Shown here one piece after another: positions 1 to 64,000 of a DNA stretch of 64,000 nt; positions within the stretch are counted from its first letter, which is position 1; every line of letters starts with the position of its first letter. The stretch is from Escarpia spicata (Eukaryota > Annelida > Polychaeta > Sabellida > Siboglinidae). The position numbers and the translations under genes are program-made. A model generated the notes under the pieces. That model was not told the origin of the DNA and did not search any database. It saw nothing but the letters and a program-made list of their open reading frames with translations. Where the stretch lies: NCBI GenBank assembly GCA_963995525.1, contig OZ023207.1:33490681-33554680 (forward strand). Direction: 5' to 3'.

Positions 1-204
1 AAATGTACTAATATATAATGCAATCGGATTAGGCAGAAAAACATGGTCGTTGAGTAGAGAAGGGCATCATATAGGCAAATACTCATATCGCTAATACACG
101 TTTTCCAGTTTCGTACTTCAACGCGTGTTTTTAATCTTTACTATATATTTACAATCAACAATGAAAATATCCTATAGCATGTTGACAAGAAAAAGAAACC
201 GCAC

Positions 205-318
205 CTGAAGAACACTGCGGATCTGTGTAGCCAAGCGCACACAAACAGGTGTACGAGTCGACTGCATCCTCGCATGTCCCACCGTTCAGGCAAGGCTTGC
301 TTTGGCATTCATCAACAT
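205..318 (-). CDS. Exon A, calcium-binding-type EGF module (unit 1)
   Basis: 114 bp, 38 codons, phase 1 at both ends. Read on the minus strand, the acceptor is gatgtgtag before AT-GTT-GAT-GAA-TGC and the donor is TCTTCAG followed by gtgcgg. The module begins VDEC; with the codon shared across the junction this can give the D-x-D-E-C calcium-binding pattern. It has the six EGF cysteines, spaced C-x4-C-x5-C-x8-C-x-C-x8-[13 protein letters not shown] matches the Asp/Asn beta-hydroxylation pattern C-x-[DN]-x4-[FY]-x-C-x-C. CQSKPC fits the O-glucose consensus C1-x-S-x-P-C2, and CLNGGTC fits the O-fucose consensus C2-x4-[ST]-C3. It is the last exon of each D-C-B-A cassette and is followed by exon D of the next unit at lower coordinates, after an intron of about 240 nt. 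It is present 18 times with an identical protein sequence. Confidence 0.85.
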
Positions 319-3300
319 CTACACATCGACGAAAGGAGCAATGCATCAAAGAATCTATTATCATCAATGAATTGGCAAGTATTTTATTGCTATAGCTTAA
401 ATTAATCTTATACATTTCATTCAATCAATCAATCTGTCGACCAGACCGTAAATAGGAAGTTTATTTCCACAACCAAATAGTATAATATTTCTAAATACAG
501 CACAATTTATTGGAAGTACAAAAATACATAATTAATCAATAGTGTGATGGAAAGAGGAAGAGCAACATAATCACATTAATGAATTGTTCATATCCATTGA
601 TGCAGGGCTTAAGATATACACTTACCAAAATTGCAATCATTTCCTTTGTAACCCGCAGGGCACAGACACCTGTAGATAGAGCCGTCATTATCGCCTAAAC
701 ATGTTCCGCCGTTTTCGCAACGTTTCGTTTTGCACAAACCTACATCTGAAACAAAAAAGACAGTACACAATAATTATATGAAGACGATCTAGCGCAGGTA
801 TGTATCGTGTACAGCAAATATACTATTCCTGTTTTGAGTTAGGTTTATCAGACGTGTGTCTAATTAAACATACACATAGTATTACACGAGCTATATTACT
901 TCTGCTGCAATTTAGCGAATCCAAGTGTGTGAAGAACAAATACATCAAGTCAAATCTCGATTTACGGTCGGCTGCATCTATCTAACAATATGCCGCACTA
1001 GGACAGTCGAAGTAATGTCCGAAAGAGTAACATTTATCAAATTCATTCCTCTGATTCGAATAATAATTACTATACAGTTTATTTGCATAGCGCCCGAATC
1101 AACAACCAGATTGCTCTCAGATGCTTCACATACAAGTGCACGTAACTATGTAGATTTGTATGATAGATAGGAACAAAAATAATTCTAAAATATATATCAT
1201 ACAATAATAACAAAAACATTCATTACATAATTATTAGACCTTCATGTACAAACAATTATAATTGATATGATAAATATTAAACAATATAAAATAAATAAGT
1301 AAATTAAAATGTAATAAATTATTTTAAAATAATAATAATAATTACATAACATTTAGGTAAGTGCATTTGATAAAGTCCACGTGATCATATCACAGAAACG
1401 CTTCTCTAAAAAGGTGTGTTTTAAGAACTGTTTTGAACTCTGGCTGTGTTTTTGCCATCCTGACACAGTCCGGCAGTCTGTTTCATAGACTTGCTGCAGA
1501 CAGCAAAACGAGTGACCGTCTGCGAAGGCGGCACTGACAGTAGCGGCAAAGACACCGATCTCAGTTGCCGATTCGGTTGACGTCGGTTCAGTAACTGCGC
1601 GACATGACTCGGTGCCAGGTCATGCATCACAGAGTACGCAAATACAAGCACTATATATGTCTGGCGCACACAGACAGGTAACCAATGCAAGTGCGGCAGC
1701 ACTGGAGTGACGTGGTCGTACTTCCTCGTACAGCACACGAGGTGGGCTGCGCAGTTTTCACACTTTGTTTTACAAGCATCGTCTGCGGTAGGCCATAGAG
1801 TAATAAATTTGCATAATCGAGGCGTGAAGTCACGAGCGCTTGCACCAGGGTTTTGCATGCATCATCAGTGATGCTTCGTCGAATGTGTTCAATGTTGCGA
1901 ATCTGATTGTAGCACGACTTTGCTATCTGTGCATCCTGTGCTTCCATAGTTAGAACTCTGTCAAGTATGACTCCAAGGTTGCATACGGATGACTTCGGCG
2001 CAACCCGATGTTCGCCAATTGTCACGGAAATATCGGAGGGCAAATCGTTTCGCTGTTTTGAGGTGAGGAAGACGACTGCCTCTGACTTCTGGGTGTGTAT
2101 CTTAACTAATTTTGTTCAAGCCAATCGATCACCTCCGCTACACATTGTTCAATGTTCGTTTTTGCTGCAGTGAGTGGTTTCTCGTGCTCAACTGTCATAT
2201 AAATTTCCGTGTCATCCGCATAACAATGATACTGCATGCCGTGTCGTGCAACGATGTCGCTCTTAGGTCTTGTGTATAAGCAGCATAATATTGGACCAAG
2301 CACAGACACGTGTGGGGCGCTACATTTAAAAACACAACCAGTCGACGTTGTGCTTTCCACGGCGACTTTCTGATAACGTTCAGTGATATACGAATGCAAA
2401 TGCCGAGACTGTGATGCCGAACGAATATTCCCTTGAATCATAAAGAAATCAATTGTGATTAATTGCTTCAATGCGCTGAACAAATCTAACATCACGAGAA
2501 CAGTCTTGCACTTTCTATCCAGCGCCGCGGCGATGTCATTCTTGACTCACAGGAGCGCCGTCTCCGTCGAGTGGCCATGGCGGTAAGCTCATTGAAAAGG
2601 ATCACGCAATATGTGTTCATATCAAGGTGATTGTTCAGATCTCAGTACGGTGTTGATTTAATTAACATTACAGCATCAACCTTTTATTAGCTCATATCAT
2701 GTGTACAGCGGTGGACTCAACATATTACCTAGAATATTCAACATTGGCCCGAATGCTGAATGTAGGGTTGCCTGAACATATAATTTGCCAACTGTGACAC
2801 CTTGCCATTTATACTGACATATAAATTACACGTACCCGGAAACAAGCCATGCACAGACGGTTCAGTTGACGATGAAAATAATTCTGTCGATGGTGGCTTT
2901 TCTTCAGACGTTGTCTCTCCTCCGGTCGATGCTGTTGTAGTTATTGATGAATCAGTTGTAACTGTTGCAGTAGTTGTTGCCGTACTTGTTGTGGTTGCCG
3001 TCGTTTTTGGTGATGTTGTCGTTCGTTTTGTGGTGGTTGTTATTGCCGGTGTACTTGTTGATGCTGCTTTGATGGCAAGTTTAAACGGTTGTTTTATTAG
3101 CACATACATTTATAGTCAATGAATAGAAAGTGTTTCTCATTTAGATGTTATTTTCACATTCGAACCATGTCATACACGCTATGCGACACACATCTTCTTT
3201 CATTCTAGTTTGCATAGCAACCCTATGTAAAACTTTGCAAAGTCGTCTGTAAGAATTTCATTTGGCGACAATACGTTTTAATGATAAGTCAACAAAGCAA

Positions 3301-6300
3301 GTGCAACTGTTCCCACACAGCAGTATAAACTGCTATATTTAAAAAGCAATGCTCTATTTAAAAATATTACCAAAGACATATAATAAATCAATTGAAAATA
3401 TATTTCAGAGACATACACTTTATGCCAATCGCCATAATTACGGAATTTGTTCAAACCTTGTTCACAGTGAAAACCACCAAATCCAGAACTGCCGCAATCA
3501 CATGTGTAACCGTTAAGTTTATCTACACATGTACCACCATTTTCGCATGGATTGCTTCTGCATTCTTTGATTTCTGCAATAGGAAACACAAATTTGATTC
3601 ATGAAAGAAAGAAATGTACTAATATATAATGCAATCGGATTAGGCAGAAAAACATGGTCGTTGAGTAGAGAAGGGCATCATATAGGCAAATACTCATATC
3701 GCTAATACACGTTTTCCAGTTTCGTACTTCAACGCGTGTTTTTAATCTTTAATATATATTTACAATCAACAATGAAAATATCCTATAGCATGTTGACAAG
3801 AAAAAGAAACCGCACCTGAAGAACACTGCGGATCTGTGTAGCCAAGCGCACACAAACAGGTGTACGAGTCGACTGCATCCTCGCATGTCCCACCGTTCAG
3901 GCAAGGCTTGCTTTGGCATTCATCAACATCTACACATCGACGAAAGGAGCAATGCATCAAAGAATCTATTATCATCAATGAATTGGCAAGTATTTTATTG
4001 CTATAGCTTAAATTAATCTTATACATTTCATTCAATCAATCAATCTGTCGACCAGACCGTAAATAGGAAGTTTATTTCCACAACCAAATAGTATAATATT
4101 TCTAAATACAGCACAATTTATTGGAAGTACAAAAATACATAATTAATCAATCGTGTGATGGAAAGAGGAAGAGCAACATAATCACATTAATTAATTGTTC
4201 ATATCCATTGATGCAGGGCTTAAGATATACACTTACCAAAATTGCAATCATTTCCTTTGTAACCCACAGGGCACAGACACCTGTAGATAGAGCCGTCATT
4301 ATCGCCTAAACATGTTCCGCCGTTTTCGCAACGTTTCGTTTTGCACAAACCTACATCTGAAACAAAAAAGACAGTACACAATAATTATATGAAGACGATC
4401 TAGCGCAGGTATGTATCGTGTACAGCAAATATACTATTCCTGTTTTGAGTTAGGTTTATCAGACGTGTGTCTAATTAAACATACACATAGTATTACACGA
4501 GCTATATTACTTCTGCTGCAATTTAGCGAATCCAAGTGTGTGAAGAACAAATACATCAAGTCAAATCTCGATTTACGGTCGGCTGCATCTATCTAACAAT
4601 ATGCCGCACTAGGACAGTCGAAGTAATGTCCGAAAGAGTAACATTGATCAAATTCATTCCTCTGATTCGAATAATAATTACTATACAGTTTATTTGCATA
4701 GCGCCCGAATCAACAACCAGATTGCTCTCAGATGCTTCACATACAAGTGCACGTAACTATGTAGATTTGTATGATAGATAGGAACAAAAATAATTCTAAA
4801 ATATCTATCATACAATAATAACAAAAACATTCATTACATAATTATTAGACCTTCATGTACAAACAATTATAATTGATATGATAAATATTAAACAATATAA
4901 AATAAATAAGTAAATTAAAATGTAATAAATAATTTTAAAATAATAATAATAATTACATAACATTTAGGTAAGTGCATTTGATAAAGTCCACGTGATCATA
5001 TCACAGAAACGCTTCTCTAAAAAGGTGTGTTTTAAGAACTGTTTTGAACTCTGGCTGTGTTTTTGCCATCCTGACACAGTCCGGCAGTCTGTTTCATAGA
5101 CTTGCTGCAGACAGCAAAACGAGTGACCGTCTGCGAAGGCGGCACTGACAGTAGCGGCAAAGACACCGATCTCAGTTGCCGATTCGGTTGACGTCGGTTC
5201 AGTAACTGCGCGAGATGACTCGGTGCCAGGTCATGCATCACAGAGTACGCAAATACAAGCACTAATGTCTGGCGCACACAGACAGGTAACCAATGCAAGT
5301 GCGGCAGCACTGGAGTGACGTGGTCGTACTTCCTCGTACAGCACACGAGGTGGGCTGCGCAGTTTTCACACTTTGTTTTACAAGCATCGTCTGCGGTAGG
5401 CCATAGAGTAATAAATTTGCATAATCGAGGCGTGAAGTCACGAGCGCTTGCACCAGGGTTTTGCATGCATCATCAGTGATGCTTCGTCGAATGTGTTCAA
5501 TGTTGCGAATCTGATTGTAGCACGACTTTGCTATCTGTGCATCCTGTGCTTCCATAGTTAGAACTCTGTCAAGTATGACTCCAAGGTTGCGTACGGATGA
5601 CTTCGGCGCAACCCGATGTTCGCCAATTGTCACGGAAATATCGGAGGGCAAATCGTTTCGCTGTTTTGAGGTGAGGAAGACGACTGCCTCTGACTTCTGG
5701 GTGTGTATCTTAACTAATTTTGTTCAAGCCAATCGATCACCTCCGCTACACATTGTTCAATGTTCGTTTTTGCTGCAGTGAGTGGTTTCTCGTGCTCAAC
5801 TGTCATATAAATTTCCGTGTCATCCGCATAACAATGATACTGCATGCCGTGTCGTGCAACGATGTCGCTCTTAGGTCTTGTGTATAAGCAGCATAATATT
5901 GGACCAAGCACAGACACGTGTGGGGCGCTACATTTAAAAACACAACCAGTCGACGTTGTGCTTTCCACGGCGACTTTCTGATAACGTTCAGTGATATACG
6001 AATGCAAATGCCGAGACTGTGATGCCGAACGAATGTTCCCTTGAATAATAAAGAAATCAATTGTGATTAATTGCTTCAATGCGCTGAACAAATCTAACAT
6101 CACGAGAACAGTCTTGCACTTTCTATCCAGCGCCGCGGCGATGTCATTCTTGACTCACAGGAGCGCCGTCTCCGTCGAGTGGCCATGGCGGTAAGCTCAT
6201 TGAAAAGGATCACGCAATATGTGTTCATATCAAGGTGATTGTTCAGATCTCAGTACGGTGTTGATTTAATTAACATTACAGCATCAACCTTTTATTAGCT

Positions 6301-9300
6301 CATATCATGTGTACAGCGGTGGACTCAACATATTACCTAGAATATTCAACATTGGCCCGAATGCTGAATGTAGGGTTGCCTGAACATATAATTTGCCAAC
6401 TGTGACACCTTGCCATTTATACTGACATATAAATTACACGTACCCGGAAACAAGCCATGCACAGACGGTTCAGTTGACGATGAAAATAATTCTGTCGATG
6501 GTGGCTTTTCTTCAGACGTTGTCTCTCCTACGGTCGATGCTGTTGTAGTTATTGATGAATCAGTTGTAACTGTTGCAGTAGTTGTTGCCGTACTTGTTGT
6601 GGTTGCCGTCGTTTTTGGTGATGTTGTCGTTCGTTTTGTGGTGGTTGTTATTGCCGGTGTACTTGTTGATGCTGCTTTGATGGCAAGTTTAAACGGTTGT
6701 TTTATTAGCACATACATTTATAGTCAATGAATAGAAAGTGTTTCTCATTTAGATGTTATTTTCACATTCGAACCATGTCATACACGCTATGCGACACACA
6801 TCTTCTTTCATTCTAGTTTGCATAGCAACCCTATGTAAAACTTTGCAAAGTCGTCTGTAAGAATTTCATTTGGCGACAATACGTTTTAATGATAAGTCAA
6901 CAAAGCAAGTGCAACTGTTCCCACACAGCAGTATAAACTGCTATATTTAAAAAGCAATGCTCTATTTAAAAATATTACCAAAGACATATAATAAATCAAT
7001 TGAAAATATATTTCAGAGACATACACTTTATGCCAATCGCCATAATTACGGAATTTGTTCAAACCTTGTTCACAGTGAAAACCACCAAATCCAGAACTGC
7101 CGCAATCACATGTGTAACCGTTAAGTTTATCTACACATGTACCACCATTTTCGCATGGATTGCTTCTGCATTCTTTGATTTCTGCAATAGGAAACACAAA
7201 TTTGATTCATGAAAGAAAGAAATGTACTAATATATAATGCAATCGGATTAGGCAGAAAAACATGGTCGTTGAGTAGAGAAGGGCATCATATAGGCAAATA
7301 CTCATATCGCTAATACACGTTTTCCAGTTTCGTACTTCAACGCGTGTTTTTAATCTTTAATATATATTTACAATCAACAATGAAAATATCCTATAGCATG
7401 TTGACAAGAAAAAGAAACCGCACCTGAAGAACACTGCGGATCTGTGTAGCCAAGCGCACACAAACAGGTGTACGAGTCGACTGCATCCTCGCATGTCCCA
7501 CCGTTCAGGCAAGGCTTGCTTTGGCATTCATCAACATCTACACATCGACGAAAGGAGCAATGCATCAAAGAATCTATTATCATCAATGAATTGGCAAGTA
7601 TTTTATTGCTATAGCTTAAATTAATCTTATACATTTCATTCAATCAATCAATCTGTCGACCAGACCGTAAATAGGAAGTTTATTTCCACAACCAAATAGT
7701 ATAATATTTCTAAATACAGCACAATTTATTGGAAGTACAAAAATACATAATTAATCAATCGTGTGATGGAAAGAGGAAGAGCAACATAATCACATTAATT
7801 AATTGTTCATATCCATTGATGCAGGGCTTAAGATATACACTTACCAAAATTGCAATCATTTCCTTTGTAACCCGCAGGGCACAGACACCTGTAGATAGAG
7901 CCGTCATTATCGCCTAAACATGTTCCGCCGTTTTCGCAACGTTTCGTTTTGCACAAACCTACATCTGAAACAAAAAAGACAGTACACAATAATTATATGA
8001 AGACGATCTAGCGCAGGTATGTATCGTGTACAGCAAATATACTATTCCTGTTTTGAGTTAGGTTTATCAGACGTGTGTCTAATTAAACATACACATAGTA
8101 TTACACGAGCTATATTACTTCTGCTGCAATTTAGCGAATCCAAGTGTGTGAAGAACAAATACATCAAGTCAAATCTCGATTTACGGTCGGCTGCATCTAT
8201 CTAACAATATGCCGCACTAGGACAGTCGAAGTAATGTCCGAAAGAGTAACATTTATCAAATTCATTCCTCTGATTCGAATAATAATTACTATACAGTTTA
8301 TTTGCATAGCGCCCGAATCAACAACCAGATTGCTCTCAGATGCTTCACATACAAGTGCACGTAACTATGTAGATTTGTATGATAGATAGGAACAAAAATA
8401 ATTCTAAAATATATATCATACAATAATAACAAAAACATTCATTACATAATTATTAGACCTTCATGTACAAACAATTATAATTGATATGATAAATATTAAA
8501 CAATATAAAATAAATAAGTAAATTAAAATGTAATAAATAATTTTAAAATAATAATAATAATTACATAACATTTAGGTAAGTGCATTTGATAAAGTCCACG
8601 TGATCATATCACAGAAACGCTTCTCTAAAAAGGTGTGTTTTAAGAACTGTTTTGAACTCTGGCTGTGTTTTTGCCATCCTGACACAGTCCGGCAGTCTGT
8701 TTCATAGACTTGCTGCAGACAGCAAAACGAGTGACCGTCTGCGAAGGCGGCACTGACAGTAGCGGCAAAGACACCGATCTCAGTTGCCGATTCGGTTGAC
8801 GTCGGTTCAGTAACTGCGCGAGATGACTCGGTGCCAGGTCATGCATCACAGAGTACGCAAATACAAGCACTAATGTCTGGCGCACACAGACAGGTAACCA
8901 ATGCAAGTGCGGCAGCACTGGAGTGACGTGGTCGTACTTCCTCGTACAGCACACGAGGTGGGCTGCGCAGTTTTCACACTTTGTTTTACAAGCATCGTCT
9001 GCGGTAGGCCATAGAGTAATAAATTTGCATAATCGAGGCGTGAAGTCACGAGCGCTTGCACCAGGGTTTTGCATGCATCATCAGTGATGCTTCGTCGAAT
9101 GTGTTCAATGTTGCGAATCTGATTGTAGCACGACTTTGCTATCTGTGCATCCTGTGCTTCCATAGTTAGAACTCTGTCAAGTATGACTCCAAGGTTGCAT
9201 ACGGATGACTTCGGCGCAACCCGATGTTCGCCAATTGTCACGGAAATATCGGAGGGCAAATCGTTTCGCTGTTTTGAGGTGAGGAAGACGACTGCCTCTG

Positions 9301-54300: not shown

Positions 54301-57300
54301 CAATGAAAATATCCTATAGCATGTTGACAAGAAAAAGAAACCGCACCTGAAGAACACTGCGGATCTGTGTAGCCAAGCGCACACAAACAGGTGTACGAGT
54401 CGACTGCATCCTCGCATGTCCCACCGTTCAGGCAAGGCTTGCTTTGGCATTCATCGACATCTACACATCGACGAAAGGAGCAATGCATCAAAGAATCTAT
54501 TATCATCAATGAATTGGCAAGTATTTTATTGCTATAGCTTAAATTAATCTTATACATTTCATTCAATCAATCAATCTGTCGACCAGACCGTAAATAGGAA
54601 GTTTATTTCCACAACCAAATAGTATAATATTTCTAAATACAGCACAATTTTTTGGAAGTACAAAAATACATAATTAATCAATAGTGTGATGGAAAGAGGA
54701 AGAGCAACATAATCACATTAATGAATTGTTCATATCCATTGATGCAGGGCTTAAGATATACACTTACCAAAATTGCAATCATTTCCTTTGTAACCCGCAG
54801 GGCAGAGACACCTGTAGATAGAGCCGTCATTATCGCCTAAACATGTTCCGCCGTTTTCGCAACGTTTCGTTTTGCACAAACCTACATCTGAAACAAAAAA
54901 GACAGTACACAATAATTATATGAAGACGATCTAGCGCAGGTATGTATCGTGTACAGCAAATATACTATTCCTGTTTTGAGTTAGGTTTATCAGACGTGTG
55001 TCTAATTAAACATACACATAGTATTACACGAGCTATATTACTTCTGCTGCAATTTAGCGAATCCAGGTGTGTGAAGAACAAATACATCAAGTCAAATCTC
55101 GATTTACGGTCGGCTGCATCTATCTAACAATATGCCGCACTAGGACAGTCGAAGTAATGTCCGAAAGAGTAACATTTATTAAATTCATTCCTCTGATTCG
55201 AATAATAATTACTATACAGTTTATTTGCATAGCGCCCGAATCAACAACCAGATTGCTCTCAGATGCTTCACATACAAGTGCACGTAACTATGTAGATTTG
55301 TATGATAGATAGGAACAAAAATAATTCTAAAATATATATCATACAATAATAACAAAAAACATTCATTACATAATTATTAGACCTTCATGTACAAACAATT
55401 ATAATTGATATGATAAATATTAAACAATATAAAATAAATAAGTAAATTAAAATGTAATAAATTATTTTAAAATAATAATAATAATTACATAACATTTAGG
55501 TAAGTGCATTTGATAAACTCCACGTGATCATATCACAGAAACGCTTCTCTAAAAAGGTGTGTTTTAAGAACTGTTTTGAACTCTGGCTGTGTTTTTGCCA
55601 TCCTGACACAGTCCGGCAGTCTGTTTCATAGACTTGCTGCAGACAGCAAAACGAGTGACCGTCTGCGAAGGCGGCACTGACAGTAGCGGCAAAGACACCG
55701 ATCTCAGTTGCCGATTCGGTTGACGTCGGTTCAGTAACTGCGCGAGATGACGCGGTGCCAGGTCATGCATCACAGAGTACGCAAATACAAGCACTATATA
55801 TGTCTGGCGCACACAGACAGGTAACCAATGCAAGTGCGGCAGCACTGGAGTGACGTGGTCGTACTTCCTCGTACAGCACACGAGGTGGGCTGCGCAGTTT
55901 TCACACTTTGTTTTACAAGCATCGTCTGCGGTAGGCCATAGAGTAATAAATTTGCATAATCGAGGCGTGAAGTCACGAGCGCTTGCACCAGGGTTTTGCA
56001 TGCATCATCAGTGATGCTTCGTCGAATGTGTTCAATGTTGCGAATCTGATTGTAGCACGACTTTGCTATCTGTGCATCCTGTGCTTCCATAGTTAGAACT
56101 CTGTCAAGTATGACTCCAAGGTTGCGTACGGATGACTTCGGCGCAACCCGATGTTCGCCAATTGTCACGGAAATATCGGAGGGCAAATCGTTTCGCTGTT
56201 TTGAGGTGAGGAAGACGACTGCCTCTGACTTCTGGGTGTGTATCTTAACTAATTTTGTTCAAGCCAATCGATCACCTCCGCTACACATTGTTCAATGTTC
56301 GTTTTTGCTGCAGTGAGTGGTTTCTCGTGCTCAACTGTCATATAAATTTCCGTGTCATCCGCATAACAATGATACTGCATGCCGTGTCGTGCAACGATGT
56401 CGCTCTTAGGTCTTGTGTATAAGCAGCATAATATTGGACCAAGCACAGACACGTGTGGGGCGCTACATTTAAAAACACAACCAGTCGACGTTGTGCTTTC
56501 CACGGCGACTTTCTGATAACGTTCAGTGATATACGAATGCAAATGCCGAGACTGTGATGCCGAACGAATGTTCCCTTGAATCATCAAGAAATCAATTGTG
56601 ATTAATTGCTTCAATGCGCTGAACAAATCTAACATCACGAGAACAGTCTTGCACTTTCTATCCAGCGCCGCGGCGATGTCATTCTTGACTCACAGGAGCG
56701 CCGTCTCCGTCGAGTGGCCATGGCGGTAAGCTCATTGAAAAGGATCACGCAATGTGTTCATATCAAGGTGATTGTTCAGATCTCAGTACGGTGTTGATTT
56801 AATTAACATTACAGCATCAACCTTTTATTAGCTCATATCATGTATACAGCGGTGGACTCAACATATTACCTAGAATATTCAACATTGGCCCGAATGCTGA
56901 ATATAGGGTTGCCTGAACATAAAATTTGCCAACTGTGACACCTTGCCATTTATACTTACATATAAATTACACGTACCCGGAAACAAGCCATGCACAGACG
57001 GTTCAGTTGACGATGAAAATAATTCTGTCGATGGTGGCTTTTCTTCAGACGTTGTCTCTCCTCCGGTCGATGCTGTTGTAGTTATTGATGAAGCAGTTGT
57101 AACTGTTGCAGTAGTTGTTGCCGTACTTGTTGTGGTTGCCGTCGTTTTTGGTGATGTTGTCGTTCGTTTTGTGGTGGTTGTTATTGCCGGTGTACTTGTT
57201 GATGCTGCTTTGATGGCAAGTTTAAACGGTTGTTTTATTAGCACATACATTTATAGTCAATGAATAGAAAGTGTTTCTCATTTAGATGTTATTTTCACAT

Positions 57301-60300
57301 TCGAACCATGTTATACACGCTATGCGACACACATCTTCTTTCATTCTAGTTTGCATAGCAACCCTATGTAAAACTTTGCAAAGTCGTCTGTAAGAATTTC
57401 ATTTGGCGACAATACGTTTTAATGATAAGTCAACAAAGCAAGTGCAACTGTTCCCACACAGCAGTATAAACTGCTATATTTAAAAAGCAATGCTCTATTT
57501 AAAAATATTACCAAAGACATATAATAAATCAATTGAAAATATATTTCAGAGACATACACTTTATGCCAATCGCCATAATTACGGAATTTGTTCAAACCTT
57601 GTTCACAGTGAAAACCACCAAATCCAGAACTGCCGCAATCACATGTGTAACCGTTAAGTTTATCTACACATGTACCACCATTTTCGCATGGATTGCTTCT
57701 GCATTCTTTGATTTCTGCAATAGGAAACACAAATTTGATTCATGAAAGAAAGAAATGTACTAATATATAATGCAATCGGATTAGGCAGAAAAACATGGTT
57801 CGTGAGTAGAGAAGGGCATCATATAGGCAAATACTCATATCGCTAATACACGTTTTCCAGTTTCGTACTTCAACGCGTGTTTTTAATCTTTAATATATAT
57901 TTACAATCAACAATGAAAATATCCTATAGCATGTTGACAAGAAAAAGAAACCGCACCTGAAGAACACTGCGGATCTGTGTAGCCAAGCGCACACAAACAG
58001 GTGTACGAGTCGACTGCATCCTCGCATGTCCCACCGTTCAGGCAAGGCTTGCTTTGGCATTCATCAACATCTACACATCGACGAAAGGAGCAATGCATCA
58101 AATAATCTATTATCATCAATGAATTGGCAAGTATTTTATTGCTATAGCTTAAATTAATCTTATACATTTCATTCAATCAATCAATCTGTCGACCAGACCA
58201 TAAATAGGAAGTTTATTTCCACAACCAAATAGTACAATATTTCTAAATACAGCACAATTTATTGGAAGTACAAAAATACATAATTAATCAATAGTGTGAT
58301 GGAAAGAGGAAGAGCAACATAATCACATTAATGAATTGTTCATATCCATTGATGCAGGGCTTAAGATATACACTTACCAAAATTGCAATCATTTCCTTTG
58401 TAACCCGCAGGGCACAGACACCTGTAGATAGAGCCGTCATTATCGCCTAAACATGTTCCGCCGTTTTCGCAACGTTTCGTTTTGCACAAACCTACATCTG
58501 AAACAAAAAAGACAGTACACAATAATTATATGAAGACGATCTAGCGCAGGTATGTATCGTGTACAGCAAATATACTATTCCTGTTTTGAGTTAGGTTTAT
58601 CAGACGTGTGTCTAATTAAACATACACATAGTATTACACGAGCTATATTACTTTTGCTGCAATTTAGCGAATCCAGGTGTGTGAAGAACAAATACATCAA
58701 GTCAAATCTCGATTTACGGTCGGCTGCATCTATCTAACAATATGCCGCACTAGGACAGTCGAAGTAATGTCCGAAAGAGTAACATTTATCAAATTCATTC
58801 CTCTGATTCGAATAATAATTACTATACAGTTTATTTGCATAGCGCCCGAATCAACAACCAGATTGCTCTCAGATGCTTCACATACAAGTGCACGTAACTA
58901 TGTAGATTTGTATGATAGATAGGAACAAAAATAATTCTAAAATATATATCATACAATAATAACAAAAAACATTCATTACATAATTATTAGACCTTCATGT
59001 ACAAACAATTATAATTGATATGATAAATATTAAACAATATAAAATAAATAAGTAAATTAAAATGTAATAAATTATTTTAAAATAATAATAATAATTACAT
59101 AACATTTAGGTAAGTGCATTTGATAAACTCCACGTGATCATATCACAGAAACGCTTCTCTAAAAAGGTGTGTTTTAAGAACTGTTTTGAACTCTGGCTGT
59201 GTTTTTGCCATCCTGACACAGTCCGGCAGTCTGTTTCATAGACTTGCTGCAGACAGCAAAACGAGTGACCGTCTGCGAAGGCGGCACTGACAGTAGCGGC
59301 AAAGACACCGATCTCAGTTGCCGATTCGGTTGACGTCGGTTCAGTAACTGCGCGAGATGACTCGGTGCCAGGTCATGCATCACAGAGTACGCAAATACAA
59401 GCACTATATATGTCTGGCGCACACAGACAGGTAACCAATGCAAGTGCGGCAGCACTGGAGTGACGTGGTCGTACTTCCTCGTACAGCACACGAGGTGGGC
59501 TGCGCAGTTTTCACACTTTGTTTTACAAGCATCGTCTGCGGTAGGCCATAGAGTAATAAATTTGCATAATCGAGGCGTGAAGTCACGAGCGCTTGCACCA
59601 GGGTTTTGCATGCATCATCAGTGATGCTTCGTCGAATGTGTTCAATGTTGCGAATCTGATTGTAGCACGACTTTGCTATCTGTGCATCCTGTGCTTCCAT
59701 AGTTAGAACTCTGTCAAGTATGACTCCAAGGTTGCGTACGGATGACTTCGGCGCAACCCGATGTTCGCCAATTGTCACGGAAATATCGGAGGGCAAATCG
59801 TTTCGCTGTTTTGAGGTGAGGAAGACGACTGCCTCTGACTTCTGGGTGTGTATCTTAACTAATTTTGTTCAAGCCAATCGATCACCTCCGCTACACATTG
59901 TTCAATGTTCGTTTTTGCTGCAGTGAGTGGTTTCTCGTGCTCAACTGTCATATAAATTTCCGTGTCATCCGCATAACAATGATACTGCATGCCGTGTCGT
60001 GCAACGATGTCGCTCTTAGGTCTTGTGTATAAGCAGCATAATATTGGACCAAGCACAGACACGTGTGGGGCGCTACATTTAAAAACACAACCAGTCGACG
60101 TTGTGCTTTCCACGGCGACTTTCTGATAACGTTCAGTGATATACGAATGCAAATGCCGAGACTGTGATGCCGAACGAATGTTCCCTTGAATCATAAAGAA
60201 ATCAATTGTGATTAATTGCTTCAATGCGCTGAACAAATCTAACATCACGAGAACAGTCTTGCACTTTCTATCCAGCGCCGCGGCGATGTCATTCTTGACT

Positions 60301-62107
60301 CACAGGAGCGCCGTCTCCGTCGAGTGGCCATGGCGGTAAGCTCATTGAAAAGGATCACGCAATGTGTTCATATCAAGGTGATTGTTCAGATCTCAGTACG
60401 GTGTTGATTTAATTAACATTACAGCATCAACCTTTTATTAGCTCATATCATGTATACAGCGGTGGACTCAACATATTACCTAGAATATTCAACATTGGCC
60501 CGAATGCTGAATATAGGGTTGCCTGAACATAAAATTTGCCAACTGTGACACCTTGCCATTTATACTGACATATAAATTACACGTACCCGGAAACAAGCCA
60601 TGCACAGACGGTTCAGTTGACGATGAAAATAATTCTGTCGATGGTGGCTTTTCTTCAGACGTTGTCTCTCCTCCGGTCGATGCTGTTGTAGTTATTGATG
60701 AAGCAGTTGTAACTGTTGCAGTAGTTGTTGCCGTACTTGTTGTGGTTGCCGTCGTTTTTGGTGATGTTGTCGTTCGTTTTGTGGTGGTTGTTATTGCCGG
60801 TGTACTTGTTGATGCTGCTTTGATGGCAAGTTTAAACGGTTGTTTTATTAGCACATACATTTATAGTCAATGAATAGAAAGTGTTTCTCATTTAGATGTT
60901 ATTTTCACATTCGAACCATGTTATACACGCTATGCGACACACATCTTCTTTCATTCTAGTTTGCATAGCAACCCTATGTAAAACTTTGCAAAGTCGTCTG
61001 TAAGAATTTCATTTGGCGACAATACGTTTTAATGATAAGTCAACAAAGCAAGTGCAACTGTTCCCACACAGCAGTATAAACTGCTATATTTAAAAAGCAA
61101 TGCTCTATTTAAAAATATTACCAAAGACATATAATAAATCAATTGAAAATATATTTCAGAGACATACACTTTATGCCAATCGCCATAATTACGGAATTTG
61201 TTCAAACCTTGTTCACAGTGAAAACCACCAAATCCAGAACTGCCGCAATCACATGTGTAACCGTTAAGTTTATCTACACATGTACCACCATTTTCGCATG
61301 GATTGCTTCTGCATTCTTTGATTTCTGCAATAGGAAACACAAATTTGATTCATGAAAGAAAGAAATGTACTAATATATAATGCAATCGGATTAGGCAGAA
61401 AAACATGGTCGTTGAGTAGAGAAGGGCATCATATAGGCAAATACTCATATCGCTAATACACGTTTTCCAGTTTCGTACTTCAACGCGTGTTTTTAATCTT
61501 TAATATATATTTACAATCAACAATGAAAATATCCTATAGCATGTTGACAAGAAAAAGAAACCGCACCTGAAGAACACTGCGGATCTGTGTAGCCAAGCGC
61601 ACACAAACAGGTGTACGAGTCGACTGCATCCTCGCATGTCCCACCGTTCAGGCAAGGCTTGCTTTGGCATTCATCAACATCTACACATCGACGAAAGGAG
61701 CAATGCATCAAATAATCTATTATCATCAATGAATTGGCAAGTATTTTATTGCTATAGCTTAAATTAATCTTATACATTTCATTCAATCAATCAATCTGTC
61801 GACCAGACCATAAATAGGAAGTTTATTTCCACAACCAAATAGTACAATATTTCTAAATACAGCACAATTTATTGGAAGTACAAAAATACATAATTAATCA
61901 ATAGTGTGATGGAAAGAGGAAGAGCAACATAATCACATTAATGAATTGTTCATATCCATTGATGCAGGGCTTAAGATATACACTTACCAAAATTGCAATC
62001 ATTTCCTTTGTAACCCGCAGGGCACAGACACCTGTAGATAGAGCCGTCATTATCGCCTAAACATGTTCCGCCGTTTTCGCAACGTTTCGTTTTGCACAAA
62101 CCTACAT
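205..62107 (-). CDS. Giant EGF-repeat / mucin-like gene, partial, about 71 exons in window
   Basis: This is inferred to be a single gene read from high to low coordinates. Every unit contributes exons D (39 codons), C (77), B (40) and A (38). Each is bounded by AG/GT, opens after the first base of a codon and closes after the first base of a codon, so exons of any copies can be joined in frame. The product would be repeats of EGF (D), Thr/Ser-rich linker (C), EGF (B), EGF (A). No initiator, signal peptide, membrane segment, stop-bearing terminal exon or promoter is visible inside any unit, which argues against each unit being a separate gene. EGF and mucin-like modules of this kind occur in secreted and cell-surface animal proteins; the specific function is not recognisable. 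Transcription of all units as one mRNA is inference. A partly silent array or alternative exon use remains possible. Confidence 0.65.
319..625 (-). other. Intron between exons B and A (307 nt)
   Basis: AT-rich intron of unit 1, repeated in every unit. It contains a short AATC run (about 419-433) next to the end of an incidental reading frame. I see no further exon, RNA gene or repeat in it. Confidence 0.75.
626..745 (-). CDS. Exon B, EGF module (unit 1)
   Basis: 120 bp, 40 codons, phase 1-1. The acceptor is strong (ttttttgtttcag before AT-GTA-GGT-TTG-TGC) and so is the donor (AATTTTG followed by gtaagt). The six cysteines are in EGF order: CKTKRC, CENGGTC, then a longer loop with GDNDGS, then CLC and [10 protein letters not shown]. 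The longer C3-C4 loop breaks the beta-hydroxylation pattern, and CKTKRC lacks the serine of the O-glucose consensus, so B is the least Notch-like of the three modules. CENGGTC keeps the O-fucose consensus. It precedes exon A by a 307-nt intron and follows exon C after the long retroelement-bearing intron. It is the most variable EGF exon of the array, with amino-acid changes in units 2, 6 and 13. Confidence 0.85.
746..1327 (-). other. Intron C-B, part downstream of the retroelement
   Basis: 582 nt of unique intronic sequence, strongly AT-rich from about 1171 to 1327. Two small plus-strand reading frames here (about 800-985 and 925-1170) show no domain and change freely between units. I see no exon, RNA gene or recognisable mobile element in it. 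Confidence 0.7.
1328..2660 (-). mobile_element. L2/CR1-like non-LTR retrotransposon, 5'-truncated, decayed (unit 1)
   Basis: Reads on the minus strand and carries the C-terminal half of a reverse transcriptase spread over three frames. Visible family signatures in order: HSTETALL (about 2560), [13 protein letters not shown], the catalytic YADD (2211-2222), [20 protein letters not shown], then [14 protein letters not shown] and KTHLF near 1405-1460, then a 3' tail ending in (ATT)n at 1328-1342. This order and tail are typical of the L2/CR1 group. The copy is dead: frameshifts lie near 2105 and in 1740-1850, a stop replaces Trp before NRLPDCV, and stops occur around HSTETALL. The endonuclease and the N-terminal part of the RT are absent. 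The 5' break is placed only approximately, near 2660, where similarity fades. It lies in the intron between exons C and B, in the same orientation as the host gene. Confidence 0.85.
2211..2222 (-). other. Reverse-transcriptase YADD catalytic motif
   Basis: The complement of these 12 bases reads Tyr-Ala-Asp-Asp, followed by TEIYM. This is the metal-binding active-site box of the retroelement RT and it is kept in every unit. The preceding box, usually a Gly-Val-Pro-Gln-Gly type, is corrupted to [10 protein letters not shown]. Confidence 0.85.
2836..3066 (-). CDS. Exon C, Thr/Ser-rich mucin-like linker (unit 1)
   Basis: 231 bp, 77 codons, phase 1-1. The acceptor is ccatcaaag (or three bases on, caaagcag). 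The donor is TTTCCGG followed by gtacgt. Of 76 complete codons 29 are Thr and 13 Ser, with Pro, Ala and a few Lys/Arg in the first half and Glu in the second. It has no cysteine, membrane segment or recognisable fold. Such stretches in animal surface proteins are usually extended and heavily O-glycosylated (known for mucin-type domains; inferred here). It separates EGF exon D from EGF exons B and A. This copy has Asp at codon position 38 and Gly-Gly at 48-49. It is the most variable exon of the array. Confidence 0.8.
3067..3456 (-). other. Intron between exons D and C (390 nt)
   Basis: AT-rich intron repeated in every unit. A short open stretch with four cysteine codons lies at about 3142-3255, but it would need a phase unlike the other exons and has no convincing donor. 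Otherwise nothing is recognised. Confidence 0.7.
3457..3573 (-). CDS. Exon D, EGF module (unit 1)
   Basis: 117 bp, 39 codons, phase 1-1. The acceptor is strong (tttcctattgcag before AA-ATC-AAA-GAA-TGC) and the donor is GAACAAG followed by gtttga. The six cysteines are in EGF order: [25 protein letters not shown] and [11 protein letters not shown]. It fits the O-glucose consensus (CRSNPC), the O-fucose consensus (CENGGTC) and the beta-hydroxylation pattern (C-V-D-x4-Y-T-C-D-C). The start, IKEC, lacks the acidic residues of the best calcium-binding EGFs. It opens the cassette and is spliced to the Thr/Ser linker C. The protein is identical in all 17 copies. Confidence 0.85.
3816..3929 (-). CDS. 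Exon A EGF, unit 2
   Basis: Protein and splice sites as in unit 1. The intron to exon D of unit 1 is 242 nt. Confidence 0.83.
4237..4356 (-). CDS. Exon B EGF, unit 2, Ala to Val variant
   Basis: Differs from unit 1 by A for G at 4266, giving [10 protein letters not shown] in place of [10 protein letters not shown]. The change is conservative, between cysteine 5 and the conserved glycine. Confidence 0.82.
4939..6268 (-). mobile_element. L2-like retroelement, unit 2
   Basis: Same insertion. The TAT deletion removes one residue between VRQT and VLVFAY. It carries a Met to Ile change near 6047 (FFMIQ to FFIIQ). Confidence 0.84.
6444..6674 (-). CDS. Exon C Thr/Ser linker, unit 2, Asp/Val type
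   Basis: Asp at codon 38 as in unit 1, but Val-Gly instead of Gly-Gly at 48-49 (A for C near 6530). This type is shared only with unit 4. Confidence 0.78.
7065..7181 (-). CDS. Exon D EGF, unit 2
   Basis: Protein and splice sites as in unit 1. Confidence 0.83.
7424..7537 (-). CDS. Exon A EGF, unit 3
   Basis: Protein as in unit 1; the boundaries are intact. Confidence 0.83.
7845..7964 (-). CDS. Exon B EGF, unit 3
   Basis: No amino-acid change from unit 1. Confidence 0.83.
8547..9874 (-). mobile_element. L2-like retroelement, unit 3
   Basis: Without the 2-bp AT (near 9825) the frame runs on from LNNHLDMNT into RDPFQ, so this site is in the ancestral state. The TAT is deleted. Confidence 0.84.
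10050..10280 (-). CDS. Exon C Thr/Ser linker, unit 3
   Basis: Asp at 38 and Gly-Gly at 48-49: same protein as unit 1. Confidence 0.78.
10671..10787 (-). CDS. Exon D EGF, unit 3
   Basis: Protein as in unit 1. Confidence 0.83.
11030..11143 (-). CDS. Exon A EGF, unit 4
   Basis: Protein as in unit 1. Confidence 0.83.
11451..11570 (-). CDS. Exon B EGF, unit 4
   Basis: No amino-acid change from unit 1. Confidence 0.83.
12153..13482 (-). mobile_element. L2-like retroelement, unit 4
   Basis: Most diverged retroelement of the early group. It has HGLAPS where most units have HDLAPS (the family usually has HGLAP), plus private Thr to Asn, Asn to His and Val to Phe changes in the decayed frames. Confidence 0.84.
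13658..13888 (-). CDS. Exon C Thr/Ser linker, unit 4, Asp/Val type
   Basis: Same protein as unit 2: Asp 38, Val-Gly at 48-49. Confidence 0.78.
14279..14395 (-). CDS. Exon D EGF, unit 4
   Basis: Protein as in unit 1. Confidence 0.83.
14638..14751 (-). CDS. Exon A EGF, unit 5
   Basis: Protein unchanged. Two private changes lie just upstream in the intron (near 14808 and 14827). Confidence 0.83.
15059..15178 (-). CDS. Exon B EGF, unit 5
   Basis: Protein as in unit 1. Confidence 0.83.
15761..17091 (-). mobile_element. L2-like retroelement, unit 5
   Basis: Carries an Ala to Val change (LTAAK to LTVAK, near 16600), private to this unit. Confidence 0.84.
17267..17497 (-). CDS. Exon C Thr/Ser linker, unit 5, Ala/Gly type
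   Basis: First unit with Ala instead of Asp at codon 38 (TTASS), which removes an acidic residue from the Thr-rich half. All later units have it. Confidence 0.78.
17888..18004 (-). CDS. Exon D EGF, unit 5
   Basis: Same protein. A silent ACA to ACG change in the Thr codon before the fourth cysteine is shared only with unit 15. Confidence 0.83.
18247..18360 (-). CDS. Exon A EGF, unit 6
   Basis: Protein unchanged, although the adjoining intron just beyond the donor is altered at two positions. Confidence 0.83.
18668..18787 (-). CDS. Exon B EGF, unit 6, extra cysteine
   Basis: A for C at 18737 turns Gly into Cys in the C3-C4 loop (TCLGDNDGS to TCLCDNDGS), giving seven cysteines instead of six. 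A silent CTG to CTC change is also present, shared with units 10, 14 and 16. The odd cysteine could mispair or form an intermolecular disulfide. Confidence 0.82.
19371..20701 (-). mobile_element. L2-like retroelement, unit 6
   Basis: Has gtgaattcacg (near 19867) and catgcgtcac (near 19666), both shared only with unit 7. Confidence 0.84.
20877..21107 (-). CDS. Exon C Thr/Ser linker, unit 6
   Basis: Ala/Gly protein type. A silent Pro change (CCG to CCT, near 20899) is shared with units 7, 9 and 13. Confidence 0.78.
21498..21614 (-). CDS. Exon D EGF, unit 6
   Basis: Protein as in unit 1. Confidence 0.83.
21857..21970 (-). CDS. Exon A EGF, unit 7
   Basis: Protein as in unit 1. Confidence 0.83.
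22278..22397 (-). CDS. Exon B EGF, unit 7
   Basis: Standard six-cysteine form; unit 6's extra cysteine is not shared. Confidence 0.83.
22981..24311 (-). mobile_element. L2-like retroelement, unit 7
   Basis: Shares unit 6's AREFTP, SVTHDL and VNSRLDY readings exactly 3610 bp away. Confidence 0.84.
24487..24717 (-). CDS. Exon C Thr/Ser linker, unit 7
   Basis: Same as unit 6, including the silent Pro change. Confidence 0.78.
25108..25224 (-). CDS. Exon D EGF, unit 7
   Basis: Protein as in unit 1. Confidence 0.83.
25467..25580 (-). CDS. Exon A EGF, unit 8
   Basis: Protein as in unit 1. Confidence 0.83.
25888..26007 (-). CDS. Exon B EGF, unit 8
   Basis: Standard protein. Confidence 0.83.
26591..27921 (-). 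mobile_element. L2-like retroelement, unit 8
   Basis: Has gttgcatac (Cys reading in SVCNLG) near 27245, like units 1, 3, 11, 12 and 15. Confidence 0.84.
28097..28327 (-). CDS. Exon C Thr/Ser linker, unit 8
   Basis: Ala/Gly protein. A silent Gly change (GGA to GGT, near 28179) is shared with units 10, 12 and 14. Confidence 0.78.
28718..28834 (-). CDS. Exon D EGF, unit 8
   Basis: Protein as in unit 1. Confidence 0.83.
29077..29190 (-). CDS. Exon A EGF, unit 9
   Basis: Protein as in unit 1. Confidence 0.83.
29498..29617 (-). CDS. Exon B EGF, unit 9
   Basis: Standard protein. Confidence 0.83.
30201..31531 (-). mobile_element. L2-like retroelement, unit 9
   Basis: HVTPVL reads HVTQVL, as in unit 13 only. 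gtgatacttc near 30741 is shared with units 6, 7 and 13. Confidence 0.84.
31707..31937 (-). CDS. Exon C Thr/Ser linker, unit 9
   Basis: Ala/Gly protein with the silent Pro change of units 6, 7 and 13. Confidence 0.78.
32328..32444 (-). CDS. Exon D EGF, unit 9
   Basis: Protein as in unit 1. Confidence 0.83.
32687..32800 (-). CDS. Exon A EGF, unit 10
   Basis: Protein as in unit 1. Confidence 0.83.
33108..33227 (-). CDS. Exon B EGF, unit 10
   Basis: Silent CTG to CTC Leu change only. Confidence 0.83.
33811..35141 (-). mobile_element. L2-like retroelement, unit 10
   Basis: A for G at about 34802 (silent in the RT frame) is shared only with unit 14. Confidence 0.84.
35317..35547 (-). CDS. Exon C Thr/Ser linker, unit 10, Lys variant
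   Basis: Thr to Lys at codon 26 (TTTSTA to TTKSTA; T for G near 35469), adding a positive charge and removing a possible O-glycan site. Shared with units 14 and 15. Confidence 0.78.
35938..36054 (-). CDS. Exon D EGF, unit 10
   Basis: Protein as in unit 1. Confidence 0.83.
36297..36410 (-). CDS. Exon A EGF, unit 11
   Basis: Protein as in unit 1. Confidence 0.83.
36718..36837 (-). CDS. Exon B EGF, unit 11
   Basis: Standard protein. Confidence 0.83.
37421..38751 (-). mobile_element. L2-like retroelement, unit 11
   Basis: A-run extended to seven near 38535, shared only with unit 15. Confidence 0.84.
38927..39157 (-). CDS. Exon C Thr/Ser linker, unit 11
   Basis: Ala/Gly protein, Thr at 26; here it differs from partner unit 15, which has Lys. 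Confidence 0.78.
39548..39664 (-). CDS. Exon D EGF, unit 11
   Basis: Protein as in unit 1. Confidence 0.83.
39907..40020 (-). CDS. Exon A EGF, unit 12
   Basis: Protein as in unit 1. Confidence 0.83.
40328..40447 (-). CDS. Exon B EGF, unit 12
   Basis: Standard protein. Confidence 0.83.
41031..42361 (-). mobile_element. L2-like retroelement, unit 12
   Basis: SVCNLG form (gttgcatac), matching unit 8 four units away. Confidence 0.84.
42537..42767 (-). CDS. Exon C Thr/Ser linker, unit 12
   Basis: Ala/Gly protein with the silent Gly change of units 8, 10 and 14. Confidence 0.78.
43158..43274 (-). CDS. Exon D EGF, unit 12
   Basis: Protein as in unit 1. Confidence 0.83.
43517..43630 (-). CDS. 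Exon A EGF, unit 13
   Basis: Protein as in unit 1. Confidence 0.83.
43938..44057 (-). CDS. Exon B EGF, unit 13, conserved Gly to Asp
   Basis: T for C at 43964 changes [10 protein letters not shown] to [10 protein letters not shown]. The lost glycine is the one normally found before the aromatic residue in the C5-C6 hairpin of EGF modules, so folding may be weakened. Confidence 0.82.
44641..45971 (-). mobile_element. L2-like retroelement, unit 13
   Basis: HVTQVL reading as in unit 9. Confidence 0.84.
46147..46377 (-). CDS. Exon C Thr/Ser linker, unit 13
   Basis: Ala/Gly protein with the silent Pro change, as in unit 9. Confidence 0.78.
46768..46884 (-). CDS. Exon D EGF, unit 13
   Basis: Protein as in unit 1. 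Confidence 0.83.
47127..47240 (-). CDS. Exon A EGF, unit 14
   Basis: Protein as in unit 1. Confidence 0.83.
47548..47667 (-). CDS. Exon B EGF, unit 14
   Basis: Silent Leu change as in unit 10. Confidence 0.83.
48251..49581 (-). mobile_element. L2-like retroelement, unit 14
   Basis: gcactacatt at about 49241, as in unit 10. Confidence 0.84.
49757..49987 (-). CDS. Exon C Thr/Ser linker, unit 14, Lys variant
   Basis: Thr to Lys at codon 26 and the silent Gly change: the same as unit 10. Confidence 0.78.
50378..50494 (-). CDS. Exon D EGF, unit 14
   Basis: Protein as in unit 1. Confidence 0.83.
50737..50850 (-). CDS. Exon A EGF, unit 15
   Basis: Protein as in unit 1. Confidence 0.83.
51158..51277 (-). 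CDS. Exon B EGF, unit 15
   Basis: Standard protein. Confidence 0.83.
51861..53191 (-). mobile_element. L2-like retroelement, unit 15
   Basis: HGLAPS instead of HDLAPS, otherwise seen only in unit 4. The seven-A run matches unit 11. Confidence 0.84.
53367..53597 (-). CDS. Exon C Thr/Ser linker, unit 15, Lys variant
   Basis: Lys at codon 26 as in units 10 and 14, but without their silent Gly change. It has a private silent Pro change (near 53421). Confidence 0.78.
53988..54104 (-). CDS. Exon D EGF, unit 15
   Basis: Same protein; silent ACA to ACG shared only with unit 5. Confidence 0.83.
54347..54460 (-). CDS. Exon A EGF, unit 16
   Basis: Same protein. A silent GTT to GTC in the first Val codon is the one exon A base change I noticed. 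Confidence 0.83.
54768..54887 (-). CDS. Exon B EGF, unit 16
   Basis: Silent Leu change as in units 6, 10 and 14. Confidence 0.83.
55471..56801 (-). mobile_element. L2-like retroelement, unit 16
   Basis: Private Ser to Arg (APSH to APRH) and Phe to Leu changes. Confidence 0.84.
56977..57207 (-). CDS. Exon C Thr/Ser linker, unit 16
   Basis: Ala/Gly protein. A new gtaagt arises 17 nt into the following intron (56954-56959); its use would shift the frame. Confidence 0.77.
57598..57714 (-). CDS. Exon D EGF, unit 16
   Basis: Protein as in unit 1. Confidence 0.83.
57957..58070 (-). CDS. Exon A EGF, unit 17
   Basis: Protein as in unit 1. Confidence 0.83.
58378..58497 (-). CDS. Exon B EGF, unit 17
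   Basis: Standard protein. Confidence 0.83.
59081..60411 (-). mobile_element. L2-like retroelement, unit 17
   Basis: No private amino-acid change noticed in the decayed frames. Confidence 0.84.
60587..60817 (-). CDS. Exon C Thr/Ser linker, unit 17
   Basis: Ala/Gly protein. The flanking cataaaattt (60528) is shared only with unit 16. Confidence 0.78.
61208..61324 (-). CDS. Exon D EGF, unit 17
   Basis: Protein as in unit 1. This is the highest-coordinate exon D in the window. Confidence 0.83.
61567..61680 (-). CDS. Exon A EGF, unit 18
   Basis: Protein as in unit 1. Confidence 0.83.
61988..62107 (-). CDS. Exon B EGF, unit 18
   Basis: Standard protein. First exon of the gene encountered in the reading direction. 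Confidence 0.83.
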
Positions 62108-62690
62108 CTGAAACAAAAAAGACAGTACACAATAATTATATGAAGACGATCTAGCGCAGGTATGTATCGTGTACAGCAAATATACTATTCCTGTTTTGAG
62201 TTAGGTTTATCAGACGTGTGTCTAATTAAACATACACATAGTATTACACGAGCTATATTACTTCTGCTGCAATTTAGCGAATCCAGGTGTGTGAAGAACA
62301 AATACATCAAGTCAAATCTCGATTTACGGTCGGCTGCATCTATCTAACAATATGCCGCACTAGGACAGTCGAAGTAATGTCCGAAAGAGTAACATTTATC
62401 AAATTCATTCCTCTGATTCGAATAATAATTACTATACAGTTTATTTGCATAGCGCCCGAATCAACAACCAGATTGCTCTCAGATGCTTCACATACAAGTG
62501 CACGTAACTATGTAGATTTGTATGATAGATAGGAACAAAAATAATTCTAAAATATATATCATACAATAATAACAAAAAACATTCATTACATAATTATTAG
62601 ACCTTCATGTACAAACAATTATAATTGATATGATAAATATTAAACAATATAAAATAAATAAGTAAATTAAAATGTAATAAATTATTTTAA

Positions 62691-64000
62691 AATAATAATA
62701 ATAATTACATAACATTTAGGTAAGTGCATTTGATAAACTCCACGTGATCATATCACAGAAACGCTTCTCTAAAAAGGTGTGTTTTAAGAACTGTTTTGAA
62801 CTCTGGCTGTGTTTTTGCCATCCTGACACAGTCCGGCAGTCTGTTTCATAGACTTGCTGCAGACAGCAAAACGAGTGACCGTCTGCGAAGGCGGCACTGA
62901 CAGTAGCGGCAAAGACACCGATCTCAGTTGCCGATTCGGTTGACGTCGGTTCAGTAACTGCGCGAGATGACTCGGTGCCAGGTCATGCATCACAGAGTAC
63001 GCAAATACAAGCACTATATATGTCTGGCGCACACAGACAGGTAACCAATGCAAGTGCGGCAGCACTGGAGTGACGTGGTCGTACTTCCTCGTACAGCACA
63101 CGAGGTGGGCTGCGCAGTTTTCACACTTTGTTTTACAAGCATCGTCTGCGGTAGGCCATAGAGTAATAAATTTGCATAATCGAGGCGTGAAGTCACGAGC
63201 GCTTGCACCAGGGTTTTGCATGCATCATCAGTGATGCTTCGTCGAATGTGTTCAATGTTGCGAATCTGATTGTAGCACGACTTTGCTATCTGTGCATCCT
63301 GTGCTTCCATAGTTAGAACTCTGTCAAGTATGACTCCAAGGTTGCGTACGGATGACTTCGGCGCAACCCGATGTTCGCCAATTGTCACGGAAATATCGGA
63401 GGGCAAATCGTTTCGCTGTTTTGAGGTGAGGAAGACGACTGCCTCTGACTTCTGGGTGTGTATCTTAACTAATTTTGTTCAAGCCAATCGATCACCTCCG
63501 CTACACATTGTTCAATGTTCGTTTTTGCTGCAGTGAGTGGTTTCTCGTGCTCAACTGTCATATAAATTTCCGTGTCATCCGCATAACAATGATACTGCAT
63601 GCCGTGTCGTGCAACGATGTCGCTCTTAGGTCTTGTGTATAAGCAGCATAATATTGGACCAAGCACAGACACGTGTGGGGCGCTACATTTAAAAACACAA
63701 CCAGTCGACGTTGTGCTTTCCACGGCGACTTTCTGATAACGTTCAGTGATATACGAATGCAAATGCCGAGACTGTGATGCCGAACGAATGTTCCATTGAA
63801 TCATAAAGAAATCAATTGTGATTAATTGCTTCAATGCGCTGAACAAATCTAACATCACGAGAACAGTCTTGCACTTTCTATCCAGCGCCGCGGCGATGTC
63901 ATTCTTGACTCACAGGAGCGCCGTCTCCGTCGAGTGGCCATGGCGGTAAGCTCATTGAAAAGGATCACGCAATGTGTTCATATCAAGGTGATTGTTCAGA
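62691..64000 (-). mobile_element. L2-like retroelement, unit 18, cut by window edge
   Basis: Carries a private Gly to Trp change (MIQGN to MIQWN, near 63795). Confidence 0.82.

Follow-up and report, generated by a model that had tools for sequence, protein, structure and literature searches.

We analyzed 64,000 nucleotides of the genome of the siboglinid annelid Escarpia spicata (assembly GCA_963995525.1, contig OZ023207.1, positions 33,490,681 to 33,554,680 of the forward strand). This whole stretch, hereafter called the window and numbered from its first letter, carries a tandem array of near-identical units, each with three predicted EGF exons and one exon for a Thr/Ser-rich linker. The period was read from the spacing between successive copies of 20-base words over the whole window. 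A spacing of 3610 was the commonest (42,009 occurrences), followed by 3608, 3606, 3611, and 3609, and the tandem order of the window is far beyond chance. The whole window is thus one head-to-tail array with a period of about 3,610 bp. Both ends of the array lie beyond the window, since array copies run from edge to edge. On both points, a single 64-kb array of near-identical four-exon units and the lack of either end, word spacing and unit alignment agree with the initial annotation of this DNA. Unit boundaries were set by cutting at one word common to the units. Anchor words occurred in 18 copies, the first at position 1, and delimited 17 full units (3611, 3608, 3606, 3608, and 3609 bp in order, then 3610 bp twelve times) and a remainder of 2,638 bp (61363-64000). 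The at least 18 cassettes counted in the initial annotation therefore comprise 17 full units and an 18th that is only partial. The exons of the array are encoded on the minus strand (Table 1). The CpG observed/expected ratio was 1.08 over the window, i.e., there is no CpG depletion, which would be unusual for a gene body in an animal that methylates CpG. A search of Rfam at gathering scores gave no match in 21600-25700, and an exact 50-base pattern taken from E4 had no hit in viral_contigs or in genome_contigs.

Exon copies were located by exact splice-flank words. In gene order, each unit contributes E3, E4, and E1, each encoding an EGF, followed by E2, encoding the Thr/Ser linker, and E1 of unit 7 lies after E4 of unit 8 and before E2 of unit 7. 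Together the four exons comprise 193 codons; the exon lengths thereby correct the cassette of 194 residues proposed earlier. All four exons are in phase 1 at both ends, and any number of units therefore keeps one open frame. The window holds 70 exon copies (18 of E3, 18 of E4, 17 of E1, and 17 of E2), including 53 EGF exons. All exon lengths are divisible by 3, and no stop interrupts the 3,358 codons of the 70 joined exons, in line with the more than 3300 residues previously attributed to the window. E3, E4, and E1 agree in the phase of their ends, which lie two residues past the sixth Cys. The E2 linker, of which there is one per 193 residues, is 55% Thr+Ser over 76 residues.

Table 1 Features of the window; exon and retroelement positions are those of unit 7
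Feature	Position	Strand	Remarks
Tandem array of 3.61-kb units	1..64000	-	Word spacing 3606-3611
Unit 1	1..3611	-	3611 bp
Unit 2	3612..7219	-	3608 bp
Unit 3	7220..10825	-	3606 bp
Unit 4	10826..14433	-	3608 bp
Unit 5	14434..18042	-	3609 bp
Unit 6	18043..21652	-	3610 bp
Unit 7	21653..25262	-	3610 bp; reference unit for exon coordinates
Units 8-11	25263..39702	-	3610 bp each; four-unit block, copy one (14.44 kb)
Units 12-15	39703..54142	-	3610 bp each; four-unit block, copy two
Units 16 and 17	54143..61362	-	3610 bp each
Partial unit 18	61363..64000	-	2638 bp; has E4 and E3, ends before E2
E3 (EGF)	22278..22397	-	120 nt; phase 1/1; 18 copies; donor rank 1/232
E4 (EGF, calcium-type DVDEC start)	21857..21970	-	114 nt; phase 1/1; 18 copies; donor rank 2/232
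E1 (EGF)	25108..25224	-	117 nt; phase 1/1; 17 copies; donor rank 19/232
E2 (Thr/Ser-rich linker)	24487..24714	-	228 nt; phase 1/1; 17 copies; donor rank 3/232
Frame-broken reverse-transcriptase fragment, E2-E3 intron	23009..24310	-	Limits approximate, set by eye

All 232 GTs of one unit were scored as splice donors with a general donor matrix. The donors of E3, E4, and E2 took ranks 1, 2, and 3. Under random ranking the chance of the top three ranks is about 5e-7, a figure that overstates the case because the end of E2 was chosen by eye, in part for its good donor, and its rank is not independent. For E3 and E4, the exon end followed from the EGF boundary and the phase, and their donor ranks are nearly independent support. 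E2 also has an acceptor, and the word TGCTAAT, which resembles a branch-point motif, begins 39 nt before the exon. The intact splice sites of the initial annotation thus include three donors at the top of 232 GTs; the E1 donor is weak and ranks 19. A coding role is favored because the EGFs and splice sites are intact and the layout is phase 1 throughout. With a probability of roughly 80%, we consider that the window lies inside a single long gene whose product is an extracellular protein of the form (EGF - calcium-binding-EGF-like - EGF - Thr/Ser linker)n, with n at least 17. Transcription would cross the array, and the spliced message would give a glycoprotein that exceeds 3,350 residues and resembles a filament or a mucin. 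One enormous EGF/mucin gene grown by copying of a whole segment, as first proposed, remains the best reading, although the single transcript that would span the units is presumed.

Several observations weigh against one long gene, the first of which concern transcript structure. The E1 donor scores only 0.22 (rank 19/232), and splicing from E1 to E2 may be inefficient, given this weak donor. Read-through from E1 meets a stop only after 59 codons, some of them in hydrophobic stretches; 13% of random positions remain open as long. The read-through region (24929-25107, and the equivalent place in other units) is a possible alternative 3' end. Such features would suit units that are transcribed one by one, as short genes in their own right or as alternative transcripts, each beginning near an ATG just upstream of E2 or in an unseen exon, running through E2-E3-E4-E1, and ending in the E1 read-through. 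Besides the weak donor and the hydrophobic open tail, an AATAAA about 180 nt past the read-through stop and an ATG-led frame that starts just upstream of E2 and continues into it speak for this arrangement. Yet equal openness at 13% of unit positions takes weight from the tail, and its three variable columns among 17 copies all change the amino acid (L>F, G>V, Y>H). The ATG-led peptide, with three lysines among its first 15 residues, is by eye unlike a signal peptide; a TATAAA overlaps its ATG, too close to serve as a TATA box; and E2 has the acceptor and branch-point-like word of an internal exon. Other start exons did not exceed chance in unit 7. On its minus strand, none of the ATG frames combined a hydrophobic start with a phase-1 donor scoring at least 2. 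When the donor score was lowered to at least 0, two overlapping weak candidates appeared there and two on the plus strand, and 60 shuffles gave 0.8 on average and 5 at most, indicating that these candidates are at chance level. We therefore regard short separate genes as improbable. The initial annotation had seen neither a transcript start nor a transcript end in the units; in the one unit searched, unit 7, there is indeed no convincing signal-peptide start exon, but six AATAAA hexamers on its minus, coding strand and the weak E1 donor leave room for a transcript end.

The remaining points against one long gene come from comparison of the units. The 17 full units were aligned over 3,612 columns, and 80 columns were variable, 42 of them singletons. 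With two insertion columns set aside, 78 variable columns remain, and exons hold 12 of these, equal to their share of the length. These 12 comprise six synonymous, six non-synonymous, and no nonsense changes (0.46 expected); the synonymous excess is not significant (p 0.07), and purifying selection has no significant support in the unit comparison. Since the copies are so young, the lack of stops over the exons is mostly one observation copied 17 times. The youth of the copies and the equal variation of exons and introns, without a significant selection signal, would also be seen in a satellite-like array of gene fragments that derived from an EGF gene elsewhere and is not expressed. However, the four exons keep their frame, phase, splice-flank words, and in-frame unit junctions, none of which is required of a random fragment. 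Furthermore, none of the 18 cysteines of the cassette has been lost in any copy, and one unit has gained one. An unexpressed array of this sort is in our view quite improbable. The gained residue is a Gly to Cys change in E3 of unit 6 (18668-18787), which gives that EGF a seventh cysteine and is confined to unit 6.

Each of the 17 units differs from all the others. With an indel run counted once, pairwise differences range from 1 to 27 with a mean of 15.96 (0.44%), and 38 variable columns are common to at least two units in differing combinations. Differences were few between units 8 and 12 (four), 9 and 13 (six), 10 and 14 (one base over 3.6 kb), and 11 and 15 (seven). The distance between units four apart was 4.5 within units 8-15 (permutation p 0.010, the stretch having been picked after the matrix was seen), and over all 17 units it was likewise below that of permuted orders (p 0.0026). 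On the basis of these low distances and permutations, a four-unit block of 14.4 kb has most likely been duplicated, the two copies being units 8-11 and units 12-15 (25263-54142). The same resemblance might be produced if the assembler had doubled a shorter real array, for example at these two blocks, and the single difference between units 10 and 14 as well as the 42 singletons among the 80 variable columns, some of which could be sequence errors, are compatible with such inflation. Against it, there are 18 differences in total between the block copies (4+6+1+7), and all 17 units are distinct, with 38 shared variable columns in different combinations; we thus hold an assembly artifact to be very improbable. 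Among informative column pairs, 151 of 703 failed the four-gamete test, with some columns arising from one indel and the pairs not all independent, and these failures fit a history in which units exchanged or converted sequence. On average, units 2-4 are the most distant from the rest (24.1, 20.2, and 24.3, against 12.2-18.7 in the other 14 units). Length variation is confined to units 1-5, and variants common to units 1-4 (1-14433) are absent from units 5-17. Array edges are often less homogenized, and the divergence of units 2-4 leads to a guess that the 3' end of the gene lies near the left side of the window.

The dead retroelement placed within the repeated unit by the initial annotation was recovered as a reverse-transcriptase fragment in the E2-E3 intron, broken over three frames and on the same strand as the exons. 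Its RVT_1 match (2.4e-06, 27.9 bits) falls slightly under the curated cut-off of 29.6. In a protein search, identity reached 65%, with 64% for the best full-length match, and a match from Pinctada imbricata had 39% (best 120 of 563 matches listed). The fragment was read in unit 7, and this part of the intron is near-identical in the remaining units, indicating that the retroelement was inserted before the expansion. The retroelement type, the EGF modules, and the intron layout all suggest an animal gene.

We examined the domains and relatives of the predicted protein. In the 232-aa joined cassette, four stretches matched PF00008 (EGF) at 1.1e-27 with 96.4 bits against a cut-off of 21.5, and the score for PF07645 (calcium-binding EGF), 24.7 bits, was below its threshold of 27. 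The DVDEC start, of the D-x-D-E type, occurs in E4 alone among the EGFs. E4 and E1 fit the pattern C.[DN]....[FY].C.C. By Notch-type patterns, O-fucose sites are presumably available in all three EGFs and O-glucose and Asx-hydroxylation sites in two. From its composition, the E2 linker is likely an O-glycosylated spacer. There was no mucin profile among the Pfam matches of the joined cassette and the three retroelement frames. The same four proteins contained no LNR, NOD, or ankyrin domain, the gene ends lying outside the window, and none of the signature domains of crumbs or eyes shut. The nearest PDB structures by sequence were EGFs of Delta-like 1 and Notch, and factor IX was further off.

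Two protein searches were made with the cassette, the second with a query of 1,776 aa of which residues 1-386 were scored. Candidates were restricted to those with the most shared words and to a length range, about 212-674 and 977-3,108 residues, and the searches gave 365 and 1,516 matches, the best 120 of each being listed. Listed matches were generic EGF proteins, namely Notch, Delta, eyes shut, crumbs, fibropellins, and uncharacterized proteins of molluscs and others. The eight best of the 240 listed relatives had 47-57% local identity over three EGFs. Comparison with animal proteins, which had been suggested for the cassette at the outset, thus yielded EGF relatives but no near-identical protein among the best 120 listed per search, within the length ranges covered. 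Notch, Delta, eyes shut, crumbs, and the fibropellins have in common with the array the EGF modules and the Notch-type glycosylation patterns. Taking 45% Thr+Ser in 40 Cys-free residues as a Thr/Ser-rich stretch, we found one such stretch between EGFs in 11 of the 240 listed relatives and more than one in none of the 240, whereas the array has one per unit.

Although the initial annotation recognized no named gene with this layout, at least three genes with published repeats are comparable. Human LPA contains KIV-2 units of 5.5 kb with two exons, in 1 to more than 40 copies whose exons are 98-100% alike (PMC4378929). There, as proposed for the array, near-identical multi-exon units of kilobase size lie head to tail in one gene and add whole extracellular domains; tandem near-identical units with at least two exons are found in both, the exons of the array being predicted. 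The KIV-2 unit has two exons in 5.5 kb, whereas the array unit has four predicted exons in 3.61 kb, with three EGFs and a Thr/Ser linker. MUC16 (CA125) has five exons per 156-aa repeat (PMC3431878), and its repeat number, hard to assemble, was revised by long reads from about 60 to 19 (PMC10829539). It resembles the array in having a multi-exon repeat with a folded domain and a Ser/Thr-rich linker in a giant glycoprotein, but the folded domain is SEA in MUC16 and EGF in the array. In these descriptions repeats 1-17 of MUC16 are highly similar and its five exons vary, and near-identical whole genomic units are a feature of the array. In Nephila Flag, exons and introns are iterated and successive introns are nearly identical, which was taken as a sign of homogenizing intragenic recombination (PMC1885213). 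Flag and the array share iterated exons and near-identical introns and differ in what is encoded, a silk repeat in Flag versus Cys-rich EGFs with a mucin-like linker. By analogy with these genes as described there, the predicted genetic layout is of an already known kind. What is unusual in the array is its module content, its four-exon unit, and its uniformity over at least 17 units. A literature search of open-licence papers brought up nothing on target for an EGF/mucin multi-exon array among the matches listed.

For the one long gene that we favor, growth may have proceeded as follows. An intron-bounded cassette would have been duplicated after insertion of the retroelement, and it would then have been multiplied and homogenized by unequal exchange and conversion, with one to several units per step; a step of four units can still be recognized. 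Since the junctions can fall within introns and are in phase 1, copy number can change without harm to the frame, and protein length should therefore vary between alleles. Phase-1 symmetry and intronic breakpoints would allow lengthening by 193 residues, or by 772 at once, without risk to the frame. If one transcript spans the array, it would be a very uniform natural case of growth by multi-exon cassettes, beside LPA and MUC16. Such arrays are easily collapsed or masked. An array without a near-identical protein among the best matches listed in either search is also a caution for gene annotation. We tentatively propose, as a possibility that we would not rate as probable, that in a single gene the entire four-exon block, rather than an exon for one domain, is the growth unit of an EGF/mucin filament of variable length, in which every repeat has three Notch-type O-fucose sites and whose alleles would jump by several units. 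If this is true, size polymorphism of the EGF/mucin filament could serve in recognition or adhesion.

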